Source: Desulfomicrobium sp. (GTDB taxonomy: Bacteria; Desulfobacterota; Desulfovibrionia; Desulfovibrionales; Desulfomicrobiaceae). Taken from it: a stretch of 32,528 bases of DNA. Below, piece by piece: positions 1-26,948 of this stretch. The translations under genes and the position numbers were made by a program. Below the pieces are notes generated by a model. The model was not told the origin of the DNA, ran no database searches, and saw only the letters and a program-made list of their open reading frames with translations. Positions within the stretch are counted from its first letter, which is position 1. Each line of letters begins with the position of its first letter. The stretch covers positions 1 to 32,528 of the forward strand of contig JANJWV010000203.1 of assembly GCA_024709365.1 (NCBI GenBank). Direction: 5' to 3'.

Positions 1-110
1 GGAGCGGCCCCACGAGTCTCTTGGCGATTTGACACCGGCAGAGTTCCTCATGAAAAATTCACCCAAGGAAGTCTCTACTTTTGGATGGCACTAACTTGGG
101 GAGGTTTACA
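1..110 (+). mobile_element. Right end of an IS3-family insertion sequence (truncated by window edge)
   Basis: The first bases encode the last residues of an IS3-type transposase, and a short tail follows the stop codon. The tail 'ggggaggtttaca' ends in CA, as IS3-family right ends do, so the element probably ends near base 110. The left end lies outside the window, so the matching inverted repeat (expected to begin TGTAAACCTCCCC) and the target duplication cannot be checked here. Confidence 0.6.
2..94 (+). CDS. IS3-family transposase OrfB (integrase core), C-terminal end only
   Basis: Reading from base 2 gives ERPHESLGDLTPAEFL followed by about 14 further residues and a TAA stop. The pattern RPH-SLG-LTPAEF is the hallmark C-terminal tail of the DDE integrase domain (rve_3) in IS3-family transposases. 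Only about 30 residues are visible, because the gene runs off the left edge of the window. Whether the full element is intact cannot be judged. It marks the edge of the low-GC accessory stretch that follows. This ORF is too short for the supplied track. Confidence 0.8.
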   Translation, partial: ERPHESLGDLTPAEFLMKNSPKEVSTFGWH

Positions 111-374
111 GCATGACCGGGTGTATTAGGTCTGGATGGAATCGGATGGATTTTTGGATTTCGGGAAATTCAAGATTCAAGATGCGACCCCGCTTCTCTT
201 GCTGGCTCTTCAAATGGAAATCAGTATTGAAGTTTAGGCTTATCATTATTTCTCGTGCTCCTGTAAAGCTATTAGCTAATGTCCATGTTAACTGTCAGCT
301 AGCGCCGAGTTCTGCTGCACATTCGGAGCAAAACGAAAAAATTGTCCTGCAAAAGCGTTTTTTTATAACTAATA
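95..374. other. Gene-poor spacer after the IS end
   Basis: About 280 bases lie between the transposase stop and the 3' end of the next minus-strand gene. The 100-residue plus-strand ORF in the track (113..415) has no recognisable domain, is rich in Arg, Ser and Trp, and runs into the end of the opposite gene, so I do not call it. The sequence becomes increasingly AT-rich towards 374. I see no convincing terminator, tRNA or promoter. Confidence 0.4.
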
Positions 375-1355
375 TTACTTATTATAATTCTTTACTTCCG
401 ACTTCATTGCTTTAGCAAAGTGAGTCATAGTTTCCAAAGCTTCTTTTGCAAAACTCACATCGCCGTTTTTCAAAATGTATGATTCTGGCCACTTAATATC
501 TTCTTCAAGCACCTTTAACATTGCTTGATACTTATTTTCTTCGTTAGGGCTATTACTACCCAGAGACTTTATTGCAAGATAAGACATCATATATTTATCA
601 AAAATAGACTTTACTTTGATGTGGTATGTAGATGTGTCGACAAAATGACGGTATTGTTTTAAAAACCATGCAGCTAAGAACTCAATAAAAATGAACAAAA
701 GTGAACATGACACAATTCCGTATATGTATTGATCTTTAAAACCTGTAATCCAAGATAAAAACTGCCAAGTAATTATGGATGTAATGAAGAATGTTATTCC
801 GCCTTTTGAATATGCCGTTCCCTTATCGAGCAGTATTGACGCTTTTTTGTCCGCCGTATGCGCTTGCTCAATCAAAACACTCCGTATTTCATTGAAGTAA
901 TTTTCAAAAGTGTCAAACATTTCTGCATTATCGATTGATTTTTTATCAATAACCTTTGATACCAACTCTCCGATTTTTTCGGGAGTCATGTTCTGGGAAT
1001 TGGATTTTATACTCCGTATTTCGTTGAGAATACGGGTTTGAAGCTTTCTGTCGTCATTCTCTCTTTTTTCATCTACATCTATGAAACGCTCTTCTCTGCG
1101 AAGCCGTTTTATTTTATTTATTTCACCTGCAGTTAGTAATACGCCAATTAGCGCGCAAATACTACCTAAAATCATTGGTAATTGGTCTCTTAAAACAAAA
1201 ATATCAAATTCTGTTTTCGAAAATAAAGGTATACCCACTCCGGCATATATTAGTAGAATGCCAATGACTACTTTTGGTTTCAGCAAGATGCCTGATAATA
1301 ATGGGCGGTCTAAAGATTGTGCAGCAGGATTTTCCTTAGCTTCTTCGTGTGACAC
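375..1355 (-). CDS. Membrane protein with four predicted TM segments, unknown function
   Basis: The 326-residue protein is not one I recognise by name. Two hydrophobic hairpins are visible: one near residues 29-46 and 58-77, the other near 185-205 and 210-232. They are separated by a charged, probably helical cytoplasmic stretch (about 80-180) that ends in ADKKASILLDKG just before the third segment. The C-terminal 90 residues are soluble. The start is GTG, supported by AAAGGAG six bases upstream. Codon use is AT-rich, unlike the GC-rich core genes, which suggests recent transfer. Two-hairpin membrane proteins with soluble ends are common as effectors in defence systems, but that is only an analogy. 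The next gene upstream (DUF2971) is on the same strand and may be cotranscribed. Confidence 0.65.
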   Translation of the reverse strand: MSHEEAKENPAAQSLDRPLLSGILLKPKVVIGILLIYAGVGIPLFSKTEFDIFVLRDQLPMILGSICALIGVLLTAGEINKIKRLRREERFIDVDEKRENDDRKLQTRILNEIRSIKSNSQNMTPEKIGELVSKVIDKKSIDNAEMFDTFENYFNEIRSVLIEQAHTADKKASILLDKGTAYSKGGITFFITSIITWQFLSWITGFKDQYIYGIVSCSLLFIFIEFLAAWFLKQYRHFVDTSTYHIKVKSIFDKYMMSYLAIKSLGSNSPNEENKYQAMLKVLEEDIKWPESYILKNGDVSFAKEALETMTHFAKAMKSEVKNYNK

Positions 1356-1390
1356 TTCGAGCTCCTTTAAAAGTTATAACGATTAGCACT

Positions 1391-1410
1391 AAAAAAGGGG
1401 TCAGCTACAA
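1391..1410. repeat. AAAAAAGGGGTCAGCTACAA motif (dispersed intergenic repeat type)
   Basis: The intergenic spacer between two accessory genes carries AAAAAAGGGGTCAG. A related motif, GAAAAGGGGACAG, occurs at 9462-9474. Short motifs of this A-run/GGGG-(T/A)CAG form recur between genes in many proteobacteria, often near transposases. Calling it a repeat here rests on that recollection and on the second copy in the window. Confidence 0.35.
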
Positions 1411-1423
1411 GTATTTGTTAATG

Positions 1424-2266
1424 TTACTGCCTCATAACTAATTCAAATCGTATTTCGTGGATCTCCATCCGATATAGGCTTACATGGCGCAGTTCAGGAT
1501 TCGACGCGACCAAAGCCTCGATTTCCGTTGATGTCTCGGATGTTGCCCGGGATCCGATGATTACGGACCTGATAGCTTCAAACGGCACTCGAAATAAATG
1601 GATATTGTGGGGTTTAGCTTCAATTTTCTTGTCGGCCTCTGCAAGAGCATGAATTATTCGCCATTCTTGCTCATAGCTCCACTCGGTGCTCTTAACCAGA
1701 AAGTCACTGAAACCATTGAGTTGGTGCAAACTCAGACTGGGGCGCGTGCTGGAATAGGCAACTTTTCTTAAATGCCGTAGCTCGTCGTTTTCACTTTTCC
1801 GCTGATCAAAGAATCGATGATTGGAATCAAACTCTATGACGTAGCCTTGGTGGCTGTTGGCGTAATGTGCCCACATTAAGATATTGTGGGGGTTTTCCGT
1901 TAGGGACAGGATTCCCACGTGCTTTTCGAAACTTTCGTGCATGACCTTTTCAAGTTGAGGTGTAGCATATTTTACCATTGCCTCCATACTACGGAGTATT
2001 TCTTCCCGCTTCGAAATGGCTAGCTGCTGATATATGGCGAATGGTACTTTAGCGCGGATATGCGCAGGTTGTTTTGCGTATTCTTCTATGATTAACTGCT
2101 GAAGATTAGCCTCAAGGTTTTCTTCTAACCGCGCGCGATCAGCAATTGTGGCAAGGTGTGGTTTTAATTCAAATGGGTCATTGAACGCTTGGGGTTGGGA
2201 AAATCTGATCAAGCCATCTCTAAGGATGCTGGTGCGTTCTGGGGCTAAATATTTGTATAGGCGCAT
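1424..2266 (-). CDS. DUF2971 domain-containing protein
   Basis: The 280-residue protein has the layout of DUF2971: MRLYKYL at the N-terminus, SQPQAFNDPFELKP (about residues 23-36), LSLTENPHNILMWAHYANSHQGYVIEFD in the middle, and an EWSYEQEWRII motif near residue 195. The biochemical role of the family is not settled. Members are frequent in mobile and defence-rich regions. No membrane segment or signal peptide is seen. The ATG is preceded closely by an AGAGAAAAGG purine tract. The gene starts 37 bases downstream of the HEPN stop and immediately after that gene's attC-like site, so it may itself occupy a (decayed) cassette position. I saw no clear attC at its own 3' end. Confidence 0.8.
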   Translation of the reverse strand: MRLYKYLAPERTSILRDGLIRFSQPQAFNDPFELKPHLATIADRARLEENLEANLQQLIIEEYAKQPAHIRAKVPFAIYQQLAISKREEILRSMEAMVKYATPQLEKVMHESFEKHVGILSLTENPHNILMWAHYANSHQGYVIEFDSNHRFFDQRKSENDELRHLRKVAYSSTRPSLSLHQLNGFSDFLVKSTEWSYEQEWRIIHALAEADKKIEAKPHNIHLFRVPFEAIRSVIIGSRATSETSTEIEALVASNPELRHVSLYRMEIHEIRFELVMRQ

Positions 2267-2277
2267 CCTTTTCTCTT

Positions 2278-2338
2278 GTAATATTTGAGTTTAGCGGCAC
2301 GCATTAGCGTGTCCGCTTAAATGGATTGTTAGAAAGCC
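2278..2338 (-). repeat. attC-like integron recombination site
   Basis: Read on the minus strand, the site runs TTTCTAACAATCC... then GCGGACACGCTAATGCGTGCCGC and ends CTCAAATATTAC. The central part folds into the near-perfect hairpin GCGG(A)CACGC-TAAT-GCGTG(C)CGC (2294-2316), and the outer R'' box GGCTTTCTAAC is complementary to GTTAGAAAGCC found just upstream of the gene. This is the architecture of an attC site: R'', L'', loop, L', R'. The terminal core reads ATTAC instead of GTTRRRY, so the downstream junction seems to have drifted. The last codons of the HEPN gene (NNPFKRTR) run into the site, as often happens with cassette genes. Confidence 0.75.
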
Positions 2339-2825
2339 TTGGCTCGATATAAGCCTTGAGCGCCTCAATTAGGCAAAACAGTTCTTCAGGATGGTACACC
2401 ACTACAGCTTCATCTACCGAAGCGCCAAGTTCTTCCCAAAGCTTTCCGAATTCTACCATCTCCTGAGGTGTCCAGCCTTCGTATAATTCATAGTGATAGC
2501 GGGCCTTTTCGAATACGAACTGGTAGCATAGTAGGAGCTTGTTGATGTCTGAAAAGTCTGTGTGCCCTGGCGAGCGCTCCTTGGCTGTTTTCAAAATCTC
2601 CTTCTGAGCGTATCCGGGCAATGCCAGCCATAACTTTGAATAGACATGATGATGCTTCGGCGATTGCCCAGACAGTCGAATCGCACATTTGAGCAGAATT
2701 TCAAATCCTAGAATCTGCAACAGTGCACTAGAGTCCGACGCTGTTTTCATTGAACCTGCCAGTATGTTCGCGTCGTTGATACGCGCGATTGCTTCTTCGA
2801 ACATCCGCTTGGCATCGTGATTCAT
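2304..2825 (-). CDS. HEPN-like domain protein carried in an integron-type gene cassette
   Basis: The 173-residue soluble, alpha-helical protein has FEILLKCAIRLSG (about residues 41-53), a nearby HHHVYSKLWLALP, and FEKARYHYE (about 105-113). This arrangement resembles small HEPN proteins found in cassettes and toxin-like contexts. The clear RxxxxxH ribonuclease motif of toxic HEPNs is not seen, so RNase activity is uncertain. The ATG lies only a few bases from the cassette junction TTGTTAGAAAGCC, and the stop codon falls inside the attC hairpin arm. The last eight residues (NNPFKRTR) are encoded by the recombination site and probably have no functional role. No partner antitoxin is adjacent, and no promoter of its own is visible, as is usual for cassettes. 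Confidence 0.65.
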   Translation of the reverse strand: MNHDAKRMFEEAIARINDANILAGSMKTASDSSALLQILGFEILLKCAIRLSGQSPKHHHVYSKLWLALPGYAQKEILKTAKERSPGHTDFSDINKLLLCYQFVFEKARYHYELYEGWTPQEMVEFGKLWEELGASVDEAVVVYHPEELFCLIEALKAYIEPRLSNNPFKRTR

Positions 2826-2839
2826 GGCTTTCTAACAAT
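2826..2839 (-). repeat. Cassette 5' junction (R'-type core), inverted copy of the attC outer arm
   Basis: On the minus strand the sequence ATTGTTAGAAAGCC lies immediately before the HEPN start codon. Its exact reverse complement, GGCTTTCTAACAAT, follows the coding region at 2325-2338. A 14-bp perfect inverted pair flanking one gene is what a single integron cassette leaves: the 5' end carries TTAGAA... of R', and the 3' end carries the pairing R''. The probable crossover point is G^TTAGAA. Further upstream there is no recognisable second attC or attI. Confidence 0.65.
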
Positions 2840-2874
2840 TTATTGTTTAGTATTTGACTGGAAAAAGATGTTTT

Positions 2875-3550
2875 CTTGGCAATACTTGCGTCAGTGTCCG
2901 TTCTGTTATTTTGCTTGTCATCTTCCAGCGGAAGGCACAGGAAAGCGTAGCCAACGTAAACCTTATGTTGCTCCGATCCAGCTATTTCTTTTGCACATCC
3001 GCTACAAGAAAAGTTGCGGCAACGGCAAGTTCTTCTTTTGTCATACGTAGTTAAATGTAGGACGCCCTTGATTGCCTAGGAACGGCTTGTCGGCAAACTT
3101 CGGGCGTTATGCCTGGATGCGTGCAGCGGAAGTGTGGGGGCGTGGTCAGGACTAGGCTGTGCGGGATGCGAGCAGGACTTTGGCGCAGCCGCTGGCCATG
3201 ATTGTGGCGCAGCCTGCCAGTTGCAGGCCGGACAGGTTTTCCCCGAAGATGGACCAGCCGAAGAAGACCACGGCCAGGGGTTCGAAATAGGCCAGGGTGC
3301 CGAAGGTGGCGGCGGGCAGGCGGCTCAGGGCCGCGACGGCGAAGGTGATGGCCAGGAAGCCGGGGATCAGGCCCGTGGCCAGGAGCCAGAGGGCGTTTGC
3401 GGCGGTGATTTCGGGGCGGGAGTGCAGGAAGAAGGGCAGCATGACCAGGGCTCCGGTCAGGAGTTGGTAAAAGGCGCGGGTCATGACCGGAACGTGGGGT
3501 CGGATGCGGCGGTTCATGAGGATGAAGCTCGCGTAGCAGAGCATGGCCAG
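2875..3550. repeat. Direct repeat, copy A (676 bp)
   Basis: This block is collinear with 4913-5589. It comprises about 275 bp of non-coding DNA (2875-3151) and the last about 400 bp of an EamA transporter gene. By eye the coding part differs at about 15 of roughly 400 positions, whereas the non-coding part is clearly more diverged, in places near 70% identity. Homology stops abruptly at AGCATGGCCAG. The 326 bases between 2826 and 3151 hold no gene. The pattern suggests that copy A came from a related strain rather than from a recent tandem duplication. Confidence 0.85.
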
Positions 3551-3580
3551 CCCATCTTTTACCAAACGAATTTTATGCAA
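3152..3580 (-). pseudogene. Truncated duplicate of the EamA/DMT transporter (C-terminal half)
   Basis: From AMLCYASFILMNRR onward, 129 residues match the C-terminal half of the complete EamA protein encoded at 5185-6051, with about seven substitutions and a stop two codons earlier. The first 11 residues of the ORF (MHKIRLVKDGL) come from unrelated DNA beyond the repeat boundary at 3550. The N-terminal five or so membrane segments are missing, so no working transporter can be made. The preserved reading frame reflects its origin as part of an intact allele. It lies between the HEPN cassette and the DUF1016 gene. Confidence 0.85.
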
Positions 3581-3664
3581 GTCCTTCGAACATCTTGAAT
3601 TATCCGGCTTATTCCGATGGGGCGATGAAGGAGTACAGACCCGTTTTGCTGGTGCCGTTCAACG

Positions 3665-4708
3665 TCATAGGTCTTCCAGCAAGCGTGCGATGTCTTTCGG
3701 TGACGGGAGTTGGCCTTTCAGCGCCCTGGGCAGGGTCTTGGTAATTTCATAGGTGGCCACGCCGATGGGTTTGCGGGCGTTGTGCAGGGCGTATTCCACA
3801 ATAGTTCGGCTTTTCTCCTTGCAGAGGATGATACCGATGGAGGGGTTTTCCGCCTCCTGGCGGACCTGTCGGTCCAGAACCGCCAGATAAAACTGCATTT
3901 TGCCGACGAATTCCGGCAGGAATTCGCCGACTTTCAACTCGATGGCGACAAGACAGCGCAGGCGGCGGTGAAAGAGCAAGAGGTCGATGAAATACTCTTT
4001 GCCGTCCACTTCCAGACGGTATTGGCTTCCCATGAAAGCGAACATGCCTCCCATGGTCCGGAGAAAATCTTCGATCCGGGCGATGAGCGCCCGTTCCAGT
4101 TCCCGTTCGCTGTGCCCCTCGCCCAACTCCAGAAAGTTAAAGGTATATTCGTCCTTCACCGCCAGTTTGGCATGAACGCGAAGTTCCGGTGTTAACGCTT
4201 GGTCGAAATTGGTCTGGCCCAGCAAGGATTTTTCATAGCTCTGGTTGTCGATCTGATGGATGAGCACGTTCTTGGACCAGCCGAACTTGCGGGTCACGCG
4301 CAGATAGAATTCCCGCTCCAGCGGGTCCTTGCAGCGCTCCAAGATGGCCAGATTGTGGCTCCAGCCGATTTCTCGCACCAGTGGTGCGAGTTTTTCCAGT
4401 CCGGCGTACGCTTCAAAAAAGGCCTTCATGCGCCATAGATTGGAGGCAGAGAAACCGCCCACTCCCGGGAATTCCGTGCGCAGATCAACGGCAAGCTGTT
4501 TCACAACTGCCTTGCCCCAGCCTTCAACATCCAATCGTTTTACGATCATCTGGCCGAAATCCCAGTACAGGCCGACCAATTCCTTGTTGACCGCCTTGAG
4601 GGCTTCGTACTGCGCTGAGCGGACGCGTTCCTTGATTGCACTCAGCAAGCCCGGATAGTCTTGCGGTTTGCCAAGGTTGATTTTCGGGGCTTTGTCAGTC
4701 GGCTTCAT
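3665..4708 (-). CDS. DUF1016 / YhcG-family PDDEXK nuclease domain protein
   Basis: The 347-residue protein has the two-part DUF1016 layout. The N-terminal DUF1016_N domain (about residues 15-165) contains ELVGLYWDFGQMIVKR, FSASNLWRMKAFFEAY and an IGWSHNLAIL segment. The C-terminal PDDEXK-like domain (about 180-335) contains KEYFIDLLLFHRRLRCLVAIELKVGEF, where the D and the E-x-K match the catalytic core of this nuclease superfamily. Members are predicted DNA-cleaving or DNA-repair enzymes and often sit inside type I restriction operons. I chose the ATG at 4708 because AGGAGA lies seven bases upstream; the track start at 4726 places that Shine-Dalgarno inside the gene. Directly upstream is an hsdS remnant, and the whole is bracketed by 676-bp direct repeats. 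Confidence 0.9.
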   Translation of the reverse strand: MKPTDKAPKINLGKPQDYPGLLSAIKERVRSAQYEALKAVNKELVGLYWDFGQMIVKRLDVEGWGKAVVKQLAVDLRTEFPGVGGFSASNLWRMKAFFEAYAGLEKLAPLVREIGWSHNLAILERCKDPLEREFYLRVTRKFGWSKNVLIHQIDNQSYEKSLLGQTNFDQALTPELRVHAKLAVKDEYTFNFLELGEGHSERELERALIARIEDFLRTMGGMFAFMGSQYRLEVDGKEYFIDLLLFHRRLRCLVAIELKVGEFLPEFVGKMQFYLAVLDRQVRQEAENPSIGIILCKEKSRTIVEYALHNARKPIGVATYEITKTLPRALKGQLPSPKDIARLLEDL

Positions 4709-4726
4709 CCATAGTCTCCTCGTCAT

Positions 4727-4864
4727 CGATCACGCCATCGGACTGGCCGGTGTCCTAATCTACTGCTAGCAGCTCTGCCATTTCATCTTCGAGAGCAACC
4801 TACGGTGTTTTGATGCCGCCAAGATCCACGTTTCCGGTGACTGCATCGGAAATCAGCAATGTGG
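4727..4864 (-). pseudogene. Remnant of a type I restriction specificity subunit (hsdS) 3' end
   Basis: Minus-strand translation just before the DUF1016 gene gives TTLLISDAVTGNVDLGGIKTP, then an in-frame TAG, VALEDEMAELLAVD, a second TAG, and an acidic tail ending DGVIDDEE. LIS-AVTG-IDVRG followed by an acidic tail is the typical C-terminus of HsdS, which ends the DNA-recognition subunit of type I R-M enzymes. The two stops look like CAG-to-TAG changes. Nothing recognisable of HsdS remains beyond about 4864. DUF1016 genes commonly follow hsdS, so this is the original neighbourhood of the nuclease gene preserved as a scar. Confidence 0.7.
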
Positions 4865-4912
4865 TATTTGAGAATAAGAAAGGAAAATGGGGCAAGCCAC
4901 GCTTTGGCTTAT

Positions 4913-5589
4913 CTTGACAATACGTTTGTCAGTGTTCGCCCTGTTATTGAGTTCACATCTTCCAGCGGTGGGCACATGGAAGCGAAGTCAGCGTAAACCT
5001 CACCTTGCCCCGATCCCGCGATTTCTTTTCGCAATTTTGCTACAAGAAAAGTTGCGGCAACAGCAAGTTCTTATTTTATTATACATAGTTAACTGTATAG
5101 CTATCATCCATTACGTAGGAATGTCTTGCCGACAAAATCTGGCGATTTGTCTGCGTGACATGCTGCGGAAGTGTAGGGGAGTGGTCAGGGCGTAGCAGTG
5201 CGGGATGCGAGCAGGGCCTTGGCGCAGCCGCTGGTCATGATGGTGGCGCAGCCTGCCAGTTGCAGGGCGGACAGGCTTTCCCCGAAGATGGACCAGCCGA
5301 AGAAGACCACGGCCAGGGGTTCGAAATAGGCCAGGGTGCCGTAGGTGGCGGCGGGCAGGCGGCTGTGGGCCGCCACGGCGAAGGTGATGGCCAGGAAGCC
5401 GGGGATCAGGCCTGTGGCCAGGAGCCAGAGGGCGTTTGCGGCGGTGATATCGGGCCGAGAGTGCAGGAAGAAGGGCAGCATGACCAGGGCTCCGGTCAGG
5501 AGTTGGTAAAAGGCGCGGGTCATGACCGGAACGTGGGGCCGGATGCGGCGGTTCATGAGGATGAAGCTCGCGTAGCAGAGCATGGCCAG
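4913..5589. repeat. Direct repeat, copy B (677 bp)
   Basis: This block is collinear with 2875-3550 and has almost the same length. It includes 271 bp of non-coding DNA (4913-5184) and the 3' 405 bp of the complete EamA gene. The 324-bp gene-free stretch 4861-5184 is mostly this repeat. It holds a short dyad TGACAatacgttTGTCA near its outer edge but no clear terminator or gene. This copy is contiguous with the full-length transporter gene and is therefore probably the resident one. Confidence 0.85.
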
Positions 5590-6051
5590 GGCTGCCAGGC
5601 CCAGGCCCGCCGCATGGTTCGAGCCGTCCGCGAAATCGAGCCTGAATTCCATCATGGCCGCGAAGCCGAGCATGGCCAGGCCGATGAGAATCCAGCCCGC
5701 GGGATTCAGCCGCTCCCTCATGAAGCAATGCGCGAAGATCGATGCCGCCACCGGGGCCAGATAGACGAGCATGATGGCGTTGGCCATGGAGGTCAGGTTC
5801 ATGGCCTGAACGTAGAAGATGATGAACCCGGCCAGGAGCGCGCCGTTGACGATCACGGGCCAGGTCGGCCAGCGCCTGAGTGTTGCGGCCTGACGGGTGG
5901 CCAGGAGGAAAACGGCCAGGAACCCCGCGCCGAGCAGGAGGCGGAAGAAGGTGACGGTCTCGGCGGGCAGGCCGGTGATTCTGGAGAAGACGCCGATGGT
6001 GCCCATGAACAGGGCCGAGAGGATGGCCAGGGTGATGCCGGTGGTGTCCAA
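5185..6051 (-). CDS. DMT superfamily transporter, EamA domain
   Basis: The 288-residue inner-membrane protein has about ten hydrophobic segments arranged as two EamA repeats. These proteins export or exchange small metabolites; the substrate is not predictable here. Recognisable stretches are ITLAILSALFMGTIGVFSRI at the N-terminus and FGTLAYFEPL-type LAYFEPLAVVFFGW in the second repeat. The 500-residue track ORF is artificially extended. An in-frame ATG at 6099 lies inside the terminator hairpin of the upstream gene, so I prefer the TTG at 6051, with CGGAG about 10 bases upstream and translation starting just before the first membrane segment. The 3' 405 bp also occur as a truncated copy at 3152-3550. 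Confidence 0.85.
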   Translation of the reverse strand: MDTTGITLAILSALFMGTIGVFSRITGLPAETVTFFRLLLGAGFLAVFLLATRQAATLRRWPTWPVIVNGALLAGFIIFYVQAMNLTSMANAIMLVYLAPVAASIFAHCFMRERLNPAGWILIGLAMLGFAAMMEFRLDFADGSNHAAGLGLAALAMLCYASFILMNRRIRPHVPVMTRAFYQLLTGALVMLPFFLHSRPDITAANALWLLATGLIPGFLAITFAVAAHSRLPAATYGTLAYFEPLAVVFFGWSIFGESLSALQLAGCATIMTSGCAKALLASRTATP

Positions 6052-6078
6052 AGGGAAGTTTCTCCGTTGCGCAAAAGG

Positions 6079-6116
6079 AAAGGACCGGAGCACAGGCATG
6101 CGCTCCGGTCCTTTTT
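6079..6116. terminator. Bidirectional hairpin terminator after the nitroreductase gene
   Basis: AAAGGACCGGAGC ... GCTCCGGTCCTTT forms a 13-bp perfect stem with a short loop, followed on the plus strand by a T-run and on the minus strand by CCTTTTGC. It begins right at the nitroreductase stop codon, so it most likely ends the two-gene oxidoreductase transcript before the EamA gene. Confidence 0.85.
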
Positions 6117-6932
6117 CTATTCGAGGATGTTGACCTTGGCCGGGCCCCGTTTGACGGGGCGGTGGTACTGGACGTCCGGCCTGCCGAAGAGCATCGCGTA
6201 GCCGATGGCGTGATCGGCCGGGATGCGCAGGGTATCCCGCAGTTCCGGGCAGATGGCCAGGGCCATCATGAACATGCCGTCCCACAGGGTGCCCAGGCCG
6301 TGGGAGCTGGCCAGGAGTTCGAAGGTGGTCAGGGCGATGTGCGCGTCCTGGACAGCGCAGGGCACGCCGGGCGGGGTGCTCGTCAGGAGCATGTGCGGCG
6401 CGCCGCGGAAGATGGCGTCCCTGCCTTCGGACCTCCAGACCTTCACGGCGAAGCCCAGGTACTGGGAGATGATCCCTTCCGGCAGTTTCCCTGCGTCGGC
6501 CAGGGCCCCGAGGCGGTCCAGGGTCTCGCGGCGAAGCTTGTCCATGAAGGCCTTGTCCCGGACCACCGTGAACACGACGCCCTGGGCGTTGACCCCGGTC
6601 GGGGCGTGGAACGTCGTATCGACGAGCTCGTCGATGAGGGCCGCGGGCAAGTTCTCGTCCCTGTAGCGCCGAACGGAGCGCCGCCATTTGATCAGGTCCT
6701 TCATCTGCGCCGGTGAGGGCAGCTCTTTCTCGGGCTGGTCCCCTTCAGGCGTCAGGCCGAGGATGGACACGGCCCTCGTCGGGCAGACCGTGTAGCAGTG
6801 CTGGCATCGGTAGCAGCGGCCTTCGTCGGTCATTTCGGGATAATCGCCCATGGCGATGATGCCGGCCGGACAGTCCGCCGCGCATTCGCCGCACTGGATG
6901 CATTTGTCCCGGTCGATGCTGAAATCGATCAT
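6117..6932 (-). CDS. Nitroreductase-family protein with N-terminal 2[4Fe-4S] ferredoxin domain
   Basis: The 271-residue protein begins with two Cys clusters, CIQCGECAADCP (near residue 10) and CYRCQHCYTVCP (near 40), which bind two [4Fe-4S] centres. A nitroreductase FMN-binding domain follows: WRRSVRRYRDENLP (near 85), FHAPTGVNAQG (near 110) and, near the end, GTLWDGMFMMAL and GYAMLFGRP. Such enzymes pass electrons from the clusters to FMN to reduce an unknown organic substrate; in anaerobes they are often linked to redox stress or detoxification. The ATG at 6932 has GGGAGG five bases upstream and is preferred over 6947, which overlaps the preceding gene's stop. It is the second gene of an operon with the FMN reductase (11-base gap) and ends in a strong terminator. 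Confidence 0.9.
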   Translation of the reverse strand: MIDFSIDRDKCIQCGECAADCPAGIIAMGDYPEMTDEGRCYRCQHCYTVCPTRAVSILGLTPEGDQPEKELPSPAQMKDLIKWRRSVRRYRDENLPAALIDELVDTTFHAPTGVNAQGVVFTVVRDKAFMDKLRRETLDRLGALADAGKLPEGIISQYLGFAVKVWRSEGRDAIFRGAPHMLLTSTPPGVPCAVQDAHIALTTFELLASSHGLGTLWDGMFMMALAICPELRDTLRIPADHAIGYAMLFGRPDVQYHRPVKRGPAKVNILE

Positions 6933-6943
6933 CTGAACCTCCC

Positions 6944-7558
6944 TCATTCGCTCACGGCTTCCAGGGCGGGGAACGTCGCCAGGTGCGGTTTGATGGCCGC
7001 GCCCAGCCAGGCGATGGTCTGCCCCAGATTCCTCATGTTGCCAAGCCCTTCGGCGTCGCCCTCGACCTCGCCCTTGTCGCGGCCGTAGCCCATGTTCCAG
7101 TAGACCGAGCCGGGGATGAGCATCTGGTTCATCAGAAACATGTGGTTGATGGTGTCGTAGACGTGGGTCGCCCCGCCGCGCCGCACGGCCACCACGGCCG
7201 CGCCGATCTTGCCCTTGAAGGCCCGGCCGTTGGCCAGGGCCACGAGGCCGGCGCGGTCAAGCAACGCCTTCATCTCGGCCGAGACGTCGGTGAAGTAGGT
7301 CGGGGAGCCGAAGATCAGGGCGTCGGCCCGCAGGAGCTTCTCCATGACCGGGTTGAAGACGTCGTTCTTCATGGCGCACTGGCCGTCCTTGTTCTCGAAG
7401 CATTTGTAGCAGGCCTGGCAGCCGCGGATCTTCTGCCCGCCGACCTGGACCAGCTCCGTCTCCCACCCGGCCGCGGCCAGGGGCTCCAGAACCCTGTTCA
7501 GAAGAATTTCCGTGTTGCCGCCCTTGCGCGGGCTGCCGTTGACTGCGATCGCGTACAT
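6944..7558 (-). CDS. Flavodoxin-family / NADPH-dependent FMN reductase
   Basis: The 204-residue cytoplasmic protein has the flavodoxin-like fold. MYAIAVNGSPRKGGNTEILL at the N-terminus is the phosphate-binding loop for FMN. CQACYKCFENKDGQCAMKND (about residues 48-67) is the Cys-containing segment typical of iron-sulfur-flavoprotein-like reductases. FGSPTYFTDVSAEMKALLDRAG (near 85-106) and AVRRGGATHVYDTINH follow. The start at 7558 has GGAGG seven bases upstream; the longer track ORF is an artefact. It probably supplies reduced flavin or works together with the ferredoxin-nitroreductase immediately downstream. The divergent HxlR gene 112 bases away is the likely regulator. Confidence 0.88.
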   Translation of the reverse strand: MYAIAVNGSPRKGGNTEILLNRVLEPLAAAGWETELVQVGGQKIRGCQACYKCFENKDGQCAMKNDVFNPVMEKLLRADALIFGSPTYFTDVSAEMKALLDRAGLVALANGRAFKGKIGAAVVAVRRGGATHVYDTINHMFLMNQMLIPGSVYWNMGYGRDKGEVEGDAEGLGNMRNLGQTIAWLGAAIKPHLATFPALEAVSE

Positions 7559-7670
7559 ATTTCGTCCTCCATGTTGGGGTTGACTGCGTGTTCCGGACGC
7601 AGATAGAGCACATGTCGACGTTTTTGAAAAGTACTGTCTTGAATGTCTGGTACGTACACGGAGTATAGTA
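7559..7670. promoter_or_regulatory. Divergent promoter/operator region between HxlR gene and oxidoreductase operon
   Basis: This 112-bp spacer separates divergent genes. It holds a perfect dyad CTGCGT-N7-ACGCAG (7584-7602) in the leader of the FMN reductase gene and a second symmetric area AAGTACtgtcttgaatgtctgGTACGTAC nearer the regulator gene. HxlR-type repressors usually bind such sites between themselves and a target oxidoreductase operon. Which dyad is the real operator is not known. No strong -35/-10 pair stands out on either strand. Confidence 0.5.
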
Positions 7671-8126
7671 ATGAGCAAAGACCGGCCCGCGCCCTGCAAG
7701 ATCAAGGAGATAGGCGGAAAGCGATACCGCTGCTATTTCGAGCTGACCCTGTCCGTCATCGGCGGGAAATGGAAGCCCATCATCCTCTACCATCTCTCCC
7801 TGGCCGACGCCGTGCGCTTCGGGGAGCTCCGGCGGGGCATGCCCGACGTGACCGAGCGCATGCTGACGCGCCAGTTGCGCGAACTGGAGGCCGACGGCCT
7901 GGTGCACCGCGAGGTCTACCGCGAAGTGCCGCCCCGGGTCGAGTATTCCCTGACGGACATGGGCGCGAGCCTGATCCCGATCCTCAAGCAGATGCAGGCC
8001 TGGGGCGTGGAATATGAGGATTTTCTCGGCGGTGCGGGAAATTTTGACGGGGAGGGGTACGAGAGGCCGCATCAGGCGGAGGCGGATGCCGGGCGGGGGT
8101 GCGCAGATCGATTTGACAAAGCTTGA
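7671..8126 (+). CDS. HxlR-family transcriptional regulator
   Basis: The 151-residue winged-helix protein has the core motifs of HxlR: CYFELTLSVIGGKWKPIILYHL (about residues 22-43), RFGELRRGMPDVTERMLTRQLRELEADGLV (about 50-79) and EVPPRVEYSLTDMGASL (about 85-101). Family members sense electrophiles, aldehydes or redox change, often through a Cys near the N-terminus; here Cys9 and Cys22 are candidates. The ATG is preceded by CGGAG seven bases upstream. The last 30 residues are a low-complexity charged extension. It is divergent from the FMN-reductase/nitroreductase operon, which is its likely target. Confidence 0.9.
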   Translation: MSKDRPAPCKIKEIGGKRYRCYFELTLSVIGGKWKPIILYHLSLADAVRFGELRRGMPDVTERMLTRQLRELEADGLVHREVYREVPPRVEYSLTDMGASLIPILKQMQAWGVEYEDFLGGAGNFDGEGYERPHQAEADAGRGCADRFDKA

Positions 8127-25099: not shown

Positions 25100-26038
25100 G
25101 TGAAGGACGGCAAGCATTTCTTCCTGGTCACGGCCGACCCGAAGCTCGAAGGGGGGCTGCGGGCCCTGTGGCCCGAGGACGAGGTCAAGTGGACCTGTTT
25201 CGGCCGGGGAACGTCGGCCCTGGAGTTCCTCTTTTCGGAGCCCCCGGACCTGCTGGTCGTGGACGAGCGGCTGCCCGACCTGGCCGGGGCCGATCTGGTC
25301 CGGCTCATCAAGGGTGAGAACGTCTACCGCCAGCTGCCCGTGGTCCTCTGCCTGGCGGGCGAGGACGTGGCCGAAACCCTGGATTTCAGCACCCTCGAGA
25401 TCGACGATTTCCTGATCAAACCCATTTCGCCGGCCACGGCCAAGGCCCGCCTCGTGCTGGCCTACCACCGCTCCACCCGCGAGCTCGACGCCAGCCCGCT
25501 GACCAAGCTGCCGGGCAACACGTCCATCATCCACAGGATCCAGGATCTCATCGACCGGCAGGAGGACTTCGCCCTGGCCTACATCGACCTGGACCACTTC
25601 AAGTCCTTCAACGACAAGTACGGCTTTTCGCGCGGGGACGAGGTGCTGCTCATGACGGCCCGGGTCATCGTCAATTCCATCCGGGGCTTCATGGGCGCGA
25701 ACACTTTCGTCGGGCACGTGGGCGGCGACGACTTCGTCTTCATCGTGCCGCCCGACAAGGCCGAGAGCGCCTGCCGGCAGGTCATCGACAACTTCGACTC
25801 CATCGTGCCCCACTTCTACGACCAGGAGGACCGCGCCCGCGGGGCCATTCACTCCCTGGACCGGCGGGGCAACGAGCAGGTCTTTCCCATCATGGCCATC
25901 TCCATCGCCGTGGTCTTCAACCGCGGCGGCCGCCTGAAGCATTTCGGCGAGGCGTCCCAGATCGCCATGAACCTGAAGAAGGAAGCCAAGAAAAATCCGG
26001 GGAGCTGCTATGTCATGGACAAGCGGTCCGGCTCCTGA
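25100..26038 (+). CDS. Receiver-GGDEF protein with GGDDF active-site variant
   Basis: The 312-residue protein has an N-terminal response-regulator receiver (Asp55 in VVDERLPD, Lys107 in FLIKPIS). A GGDEF domain follows: PLTKLPGN (133-140), YIDLDHFKSFNDKYGFSRGDEVLL (161-184) and VGGDDFVFIVP. The metal-binding Asp and the GTP-contacting Asn and Asp of the first motif are intact, but the signature is GGDDF instead of GGDEF, and no RxxD inhibitory site precedes it. It also has an insert with YDQEDRARGAIHSLDRRGNEQ. It may be a weak or specialised cyclase, or a c-di-GMP/GTP-binding regulator. Start is GTG at 25100 after GGGCGGGC. The recombinase gene overlaps its 3' end. Confidence 0.85.
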   Translation: MKDGKHFFLVTADPKLEGGLRALWPEDEVKWTCFGRGTSALEFLFSEPPDLLVVDERLPDLAGADLVRLIKGENVYRQLPVVLCLAGEDVAETLDFSTLEIDDFLIKPISPATAKARLVLAYHRSTRELDASPLTKLPGNTSIIHRIQDLIDRQEDFALAYIDLDHFKSFNDKYGFSRGDEVLLMTARVIVNSIRGFMGANTFVGHVGGDDFVFIVPPDKAESACRQVIDNFDSIVPHFYDQEDRARGAIHSLDRRGNEQVFPIMAISIAVVFNRGGRLKHFGEASQIAMNLKKEAKKNPGSCYVMDKRSGS

Positions 26039-26948
26039 CCCCGTCGCCCTGTTCCTGCTGTACCTCGACGCCCAGCGCGGCTACTCCCCGGCCACCGTGG
26101 CGGCCTACGGCACGGACCTGGAGGGCGTGCACGTCTTTCTGCAGCGGCGGGACAAGGGCCTGCACGACCCGGCGGCCGTGACCAAGAACGACGTCACGGC
26201 CTTCCTCGCCGACCTGCACCGCAAAAGCCTGGCCAAGTCGAGCGTCTGCCGCAAGCTCTCGGCCCTGCGCGCCTTCTACCGCTTCCTGCGCCAGCGCAAG
26301 CTCGTGGCCGAGGACCCGTGCGCGTCCCTGTCCAACCCCAAGCTGCCCAAGCTCCACCCCAAGGTCCTGAACGTCGATCAGGCCGTCCATCTGGTCGAGT
26401 CCGACGTCGCGCCGGACCCCGAAGGCCTGCGCGACCTGGCGCTGCTCGAGGTGCTGTACGGTTCGGGACTGCGCGTCAGCGAGGCACTGGGGCTCGATTT
26501 CGGGGATGTCGATCTGGATCAGCGGTTGCTGCGGGTGCTGGGCAAGGGCAGGAAGGAGCGGGTCGTGCCCCTGACGGGACCGGCCGTGGAGCGCCTGAGG
26601 CGCTATATCGAGCAGAGGGGGGCCTTCGGCCCTGCGCCGCGGGAACAGGCCATCTTTTTGGGAAAGCGGGGGGGCAGGCTGACGCGCAAGCAGGCCGACC
26701 GCATCGTCAAGGCCATGGCGGTGGCAAGCGGCGTTCCGTCCTCCATCAGTCCCCACACCCTGCGCCACAGCTTCGCCACGCACATGCTGCAGGCCGGCGC
26801 TGACCTCCGAAGCGTGCAGGAGCTGCTGGGGCACTCGCGCATCTCGACCACCCAGCGCTACACCCACCTTGACCTGGCGCAGATCATGCGCGTCTACGAC
26901 GCGGCCCATCCCCTGGCGGGAAAGACGGCCGAATCCGAAGAATCCTGA
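26010..26948 (+). CDS. XerC/XerD-family tyrosine recombinase
   Basis: The 312-residue protein has a SAM-like N-terminal core-binding domain (PVALFLLYLDAQRGYSPATVAAYGTDL) and a catalytic domain. All active-site residues are present: Arg155 (SGLRVSEAL), Lys179 (LGKGRKERVVPL), His249-Leu-Arg... with Arg252 (HTLRHSFATHML), His275 (LGHSRISTTQRYTH) and the nucleophile Tyr284. Length and motifs fit XerD-like recombinases that resolve chromosome dimers; whether it is the housekeeping enzyme or an alternative paralogue is not decided. Its start overlaps the GGDEF gene by 29 bases. It ends the plus-strand run. Confidence 0.9.
   Translation: MSWTSGPAPDPVALFLLYLDAQRGYSPATVAAYGTDLEGVHVFLQRRDKGLHDPAAVTKNDVTAFLADLHRKSLAKSSVCRKLSALRAFYRFLRQRKLVAEDPCASLSNPKLPKLHPKVLNVDQAVHLVESDVAPDPEGLRDLALLEVLYGSGLRVSEALGLDFGDVDLDQRLLRVLGKGRKERVVPLTGPAVERLRRYIEQRGAFGPAPREQAIFLGKRGGRLTRKQADRIVKAMAVASGVPSSISPHTLRHSFATHMLQAGADLRSVQELLGHSRISTTQRYTHLDLAQIMRVYDAAHPLAGKTAESEES

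Follow-up and report, generated by a model that had tools for sequence, protein, structure and literature searches.

The window analysed here, a 32,528-nucleotide stretch of DNA from a Desulfomicrobium, appears from its sequence to carry an orphan integron gene cassette, that is, a single attC site without an integron integrase; the probability of this reading is put at about 0.88. The host is a sulfate-reducing bacterium, as the initial annotation had supposed. The cassette is probably a fossil and now immobile, because the G of the GTT in its 3' R' box has become A, and since the R' core is not intact it is filed as a decayed, orphan cassette rather than as an active one. The integron-type cassette proposed in the initial annotation is upheld by the match of an attC model, by the pairing of the R'' and R' ends and by a homologue that lies in a real cassette run. 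The coordinates of the features are collected in Table 1.

Table 1. Features at and around the putative cassette (positions in the window; a slash within a motif marks the crossover point)
Feature	Position	Strand	Details
Segment absent from the relative G397	203-3555		In G397, 111-202 directly abuts 3556 onwards
DUF2971 gene, downstream of attC	1424-2266	-	PADLOC phage-defence candidate PDC-S31, E 5e-44
attC site, 60 nt	2276-2335	-	attC-model match at 18.0 bits (E 0.053), the only one in the window
Parts of the attC site			R'' TTCTAAC; L'' AAGCGG with extrahelical A; loop TAAT; L' CCGCT; degenerate R' ATTACAA at 2276-2282
Putative gene cassette, 554 bp	2282-2835	-	TTAGAAAGCC-ATG (2835 downwards) to the R' crossover point A2282/T2281
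ORF, 173 aa, predicted HEPN-like helical fold	2304-2825	-	Last 8 residues (NNPFKRTR) encoded by attC
5' cassette junction, ATTG/TTAGAAAGCC, directly 5' of the ATG	2826-2839	-	TTAGAAAGCC complements the R'' side of attC
Upstream flank, 31 bp	2840-2870		No match in the genus; separates the cassette from the eamA-derived segment
Diverged second copy of the eamA 3' region	2871-3550		Other copy at about 4909-5589

The attC site was recognised with a covariance model, R1, built in this analysis from its own training alignment of 25 attC sites that adjoin genes for the integron integrase IntI (TIGR02249 over cutoff) in other genomes. The window was left out of the training set, and one of the 25 sites came from a Pseudomonas alcaliphila cassette run. 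The R and L stems covary in this alignment, 84% of cells being paired as against 70% in shuffled and 26–41% in slid versions. An attC finder written by hand, which required a strict R box, overlooked the window site and the majority of the array sites; it was therefore used only for collecting training sites. With the R1 filters off, the next-best match in the window reaches 11.5 bits as against 18.0 bits for 2276–2335, and at the hairpin itself the minus strand scores 18.0 bits and the plus strand 4.0, the minus strand being the orientation expected for the ORF. The initial annotation had placed the last codons of the ORF in an attC-like hairpin, and the sole R1 match in the window falls on just this hairpin. 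Genuine array attC sites score about 13–55 bits with the same model, and the score of 18 bits is modest: scaled from the E-value in the window, it would not be significant alone in a genome-wide search. It is modest because the R' box reads ATTACAA, not GTTRRRY. In both R boxes the outer base deviates from the pattern (RYYYAAC and GTTRRRY), and the two deviations compensate each other. Folded as ssDNA, the bulged hairpin has an energy of −12.2 kcal/mol (z −4.9); an Rfam search of positions 1–8000 of the window returned no match.

A perfect 14-bp inverted pair had been described around one ORF, and it is present: ATTGTTAGAAAGCC at 2325–2338 and GGCTTTCTAACAAT at 2826–2839 flank a single minus-strand ORF, and the extended arms measure 22 nt and are 86% complementary. 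It is the one perfect 14-mer inverted pair with its arms no more than 600 nt apart in positions 1–6000 of the window; dinucleotide shuffles of the same 6 kb have a mean of 0.025 such pairs, with at least one pair in 4 of 200 shuffles (p about 0.02). Because about 2% of shuffled sequences have such a pair, the arms by themselves are improbable only to a moderate degree and offer little proof. The 5' end of an integron cassette, which follows the G/TT crossover, is complementary to the R'' box. At this locus the 5' end of the putative cassette, TTAGAAAGCC, is fully complementary to GGCTTTCTAA on the R'' side. These 10 bp form the cassette start, while in the rest of the 14-bp arm the G is the crossover base on the upstream side and the ATT is part of the flank beyond it; cassette anatomy therefore explains 10 of the 14 bp. 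When the cassette ends are circularised, they fold with an 11-bp arm (z −7.3) with the actual A at the crossover and with a 12-bp arm (z −9.0) with a G in its place; a genuine attC taken from an array beside IntI gives z −6.3 for comparison.

The cassette limits were set by applying the rule of the integron crossover position, G/TT (PMC2727003), at both ends, and they correct the earlier 2278–2839 to 2282–2835. They agree with the span of DNA homology to the copy in Hylemonella. The 5' junction is intact (G/TTAG); the 3' junction reads A/TTAC, so an intact R' core GTT is absent.

The 173-aa protein was assigned to no family in searches of Pfam, NCBIfam and PADLOC. A structure model made from four homologues (pLDDT 82) has HEPN proteins among its best Foldseek matches, with weak E-values of 0.2–2.8 (none below 0.24) and probabilities of 0.84–0.98 for the best three HEPN entries and 0.28 for 4nqf_A. 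A helical bundle is common to the model and to the HEPN-fold proteins (PDB 1ufb, 1wol, 2hsb, 4nqf); unlike these entries, the window protein has no sequence match to them and no Rx4-6H motif. This catalytic motif of HEPN ribonucleases is absent from the window protein and from two of its three homologues, and is not conserved. The term 'HEPN-like', used in the initial annotation, is acceptable for the predicted fold, for which the model and the Foldseek matches are weak but consistent, and does not extend to activity. As to predicted function, the gene product is most likely an accessory or defence-type protein, encoded beside the defence candidate DUF2971.

A scan for close relatives of the ORF across about 85,000 species genomes found three homologues, in Hylemonella gracilis (79% identity), Andreprevotia lacus (58%) and P. 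alcaliphila (54%). The 395 genomes sampled from the window's phylum contained no further homologue, and neither did the plasmids, phages or viral contigs searched; in the class to which P. alcaliphila belongs, P. alcaliphila itself is the only one of 369 genomes with a homologue. There the gene begins G/TTAGGCCACAC-ATG, with a G/TTAGGC junction, and GCCTAAC and an attC follow the ORF. It lies within a run of at least four attC matches (at 4489, 5422, 5961 and 7908 of the locus L011), and the genome has integron integrases on contigs other than that of L011. This cluster is like the window in its homologous gene, its G/TTAGGC start and the attC after the ORF; it differs in its two-armed attC type, its several cassettes and the presence of IntI on other contigs of the genome. 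In Hylemonella, DNA similarity extends from G(A/T)TAGA(A/T)AGCC-ATG to CCAAGGCTTT, which is exactly the cassette span; it runs from the TTAG junction to the R'' box, and the attC itself has decayed. The Andreprevotia homologue has no attC and no visible cassette ends. Homologous genes occur as cassettes elsewhere: as such in P. alcaliphila, with the same limits but decayed in Hylemonella, and not in Andreprevotia. The initial annotation had named two observations that would speak against a cassette, namely the lack of an attC-model match and relatives that have the same gene without cassette boundaries. The second is what is seen in Andreprevotia; the first is not what is seen, since an attC model does match the window site.

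No integron integrase gene lies in the window, as had been noted, and a genome-wide search for intI, which had been proposed as a check, gave no IntI match (TIGR02249) over cutoff in the host's own genome; this is a draft in 239 contigs, and an intI could therefore be missing from it. An IntI match inside the window at 26073–26870 is well below cutoff and was rejected, the tyrosine recombinase at 26010–26948 being XerD-like. IntI over cutoff was found in none of 16 Desulfomicrobium genomes and in 9 of 199 members of the order, one of them in the same family. At least 9 of the 16 Desulfomicrobium genomes have attC matches without IntI, several of them in clusters (CALINs), these counts being lower bounds from the 150 candidates scored per genome, among which the window site did not fall. 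Cassettes without an integrase are therefore a regular feature of the genus. Clusters of this kind, with at least 3–6 attC matches each, are found in three Desulfomicrobium genomes (L136, 6815–12390; L133; L134; L132). The host's own genome has a second good attC, of 39.4 bits, on contig C232.

CALINs and single-attC elements, both without an integron integrase, are classes distinguished by IntegronFinder (PMC9024848). A CALIN has two or more attC sites without intI, and a complete integron has IntI and an attI beside its cassettes. With one attC only in the window the site is not a CALIN, and with no TIGR02249 match over cutoff in its own genome it is not classed as a complete integron. Like single-attC elements (PMC9024848), the site consists of an attC and a cassette ORF without IntI; unlike them and unlike CALINs, it has a degenerate R' core (ATT for GTT). 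A gammaproteobacterial attC type, CTAACAAT-CATT-AAGC ... GCTTAACTC, found for example in the array L104, matches the 5' half of the window attC at 19 of 23 bases, and shares with it the length class and the extrahelical base in L''. The 3' halves match at only about 13 of 20 bases, and a gammaproteobacterial source taxon is therefore only suggested.

Elsewhere in the genus, five loci in four Desulfomicrobium genomes have about 170 bp in common, from an R' box GTTAT (ATTAT in L129) to a 3' fragment of tRNA-Asp (L127, from G000:C232, 5041–5216; L137, 6083–6259; L138, 232–408; L129, 11849–12025; L145, 1382–1557). They are similar only as far as the R' box; past it, the attC or attC-like hairpin and the gene differ from locus to locus. 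The arrangement suggests a point on tRNA-Asp islands at which cassettes have been inserted repeatedly. It is highly improbable that cassettes in this IntI-less genus arrive at fixed points via other recombinases or islands, with the tRNA-Asp-associated end sequence, at whose G/TTAT junction or a close variant of it the hairpins of all five loci end, as a substitute attI, and that the cassette in the window is one product of this route.

The putative cassette lies in a 3.35-kb segment (203–3555) together with the DUF2971 gene, a membrane-protein gene and an eamA fragment. G397 joins 111–202 to 3556 onwards, and the whole segment is therefore variable. Genes near the cassette, in the left part of the segment, have a GC content of 34–46% as against about 60–66% further into the contig. 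Two diverged copies of the eamA 3' region (2871–3550 and 4909–5589) flank a gene for a DUF1016/YhcG PDDEXK nuclease (3665–4726). Positions 1–110 are the end of a multi-copy element with more than 10 copies in the genus, which resembles the C-terminal end of an IS3-type transposase and would explain why the contig stops there, and positions 2996–3053 are a short dispersed repeat of 50–70 bp that recurs in several unrelated places in four genomes (G395, G404, G396 and G401). The DUF2971 gene had been taken for a possible second cassette. This was not supported: no attC lies 3' of the gene (1330–1430), even with the R1 filters off. The relatives found for it are distant plasmid matches of at most 37% identity and two members of the order at about 30%.

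As an orphan cassette, the element would owe both its circular form and its insertion to an IntI that acted in trans, supplied by a mobile integron or by a chromosomal one that is now lost. Insertion would have proceeded via the folded bottom strand (the plus strand of the window) into a low-GC variable segment adjoining the eamA-derived block, and the G of the 3' GTT would have mutated to A afterwards.

Two histories may have led to this arrangement. With not quite an even chance, the cassette is the remnant of a former cassette cluster (CALIN) in which the neighbouring cassettes lost their attC sites and the block was transferred from one Desulfomicrobium strain to another together with the eamA fragment. 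Several members of the genus hold multi-attC clusters without IntI, which makes a cluster remnant as possible as insertion at a secondary site; the absence of 203–3555 as a block from G397 and the low GC content of the neighbouring genes (34–46%, against about 60–66% further into the contig) point the same way. However, no second attC is found in the segment, even with the filters off, and DUF2971 lacks a cassette 3' end. At somewhat longer odds, and tentatively, an IntI in trans captured this one cassette at a secondary (non-attI) site, as the initial annotation had it. The single attC in the window and the G/TT junction on the 5' side of the cassette are consistent with lone capture, and off-target insertion by integron integrases has been described (mBio 2023, PMC10127599). 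Yet no empty site for the cassette alone was found among the relatives, the smallest empty locus being that of G397 without the whole of 203–3555, and the base at the 3' junction is A rather than the expected cassette G. Insertion at a secondary site is thus possible without being borne out; with no relative that lacks just the cassette, such capture and the decay of a larger cluster are not distinguishable. That there is no cassette, and that a terminator-like or chance hairpin and a chance inverted repeat surround an ordinary gene, is quite unlikely: the 2% of shuffles with such arms and the resemblance of the hairpin alone to a terminator stem could be cited for it, but no run of T follows the hairpin, a model built from sites elsewhere matches this hairpin and no other in the window, on the strand expected from the ORF, and homologues have the same end points, one of them within a true cassette run.

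Stray integron cassettes without an integrase are already well known, and the find in the window, which we take to be real, is ordinary in this respect. It indicates that integron cassettes reach Desulfomicrobium, a genus of sulfate reducers without IntI in the 16 genomes sampled, and that a small unclassified family of proteins with a predicted HEPN-like fold would be travelling as a cassette. The site in the window mainly illustrates the decay of a cassette and the passage of genes from one phylum to another.
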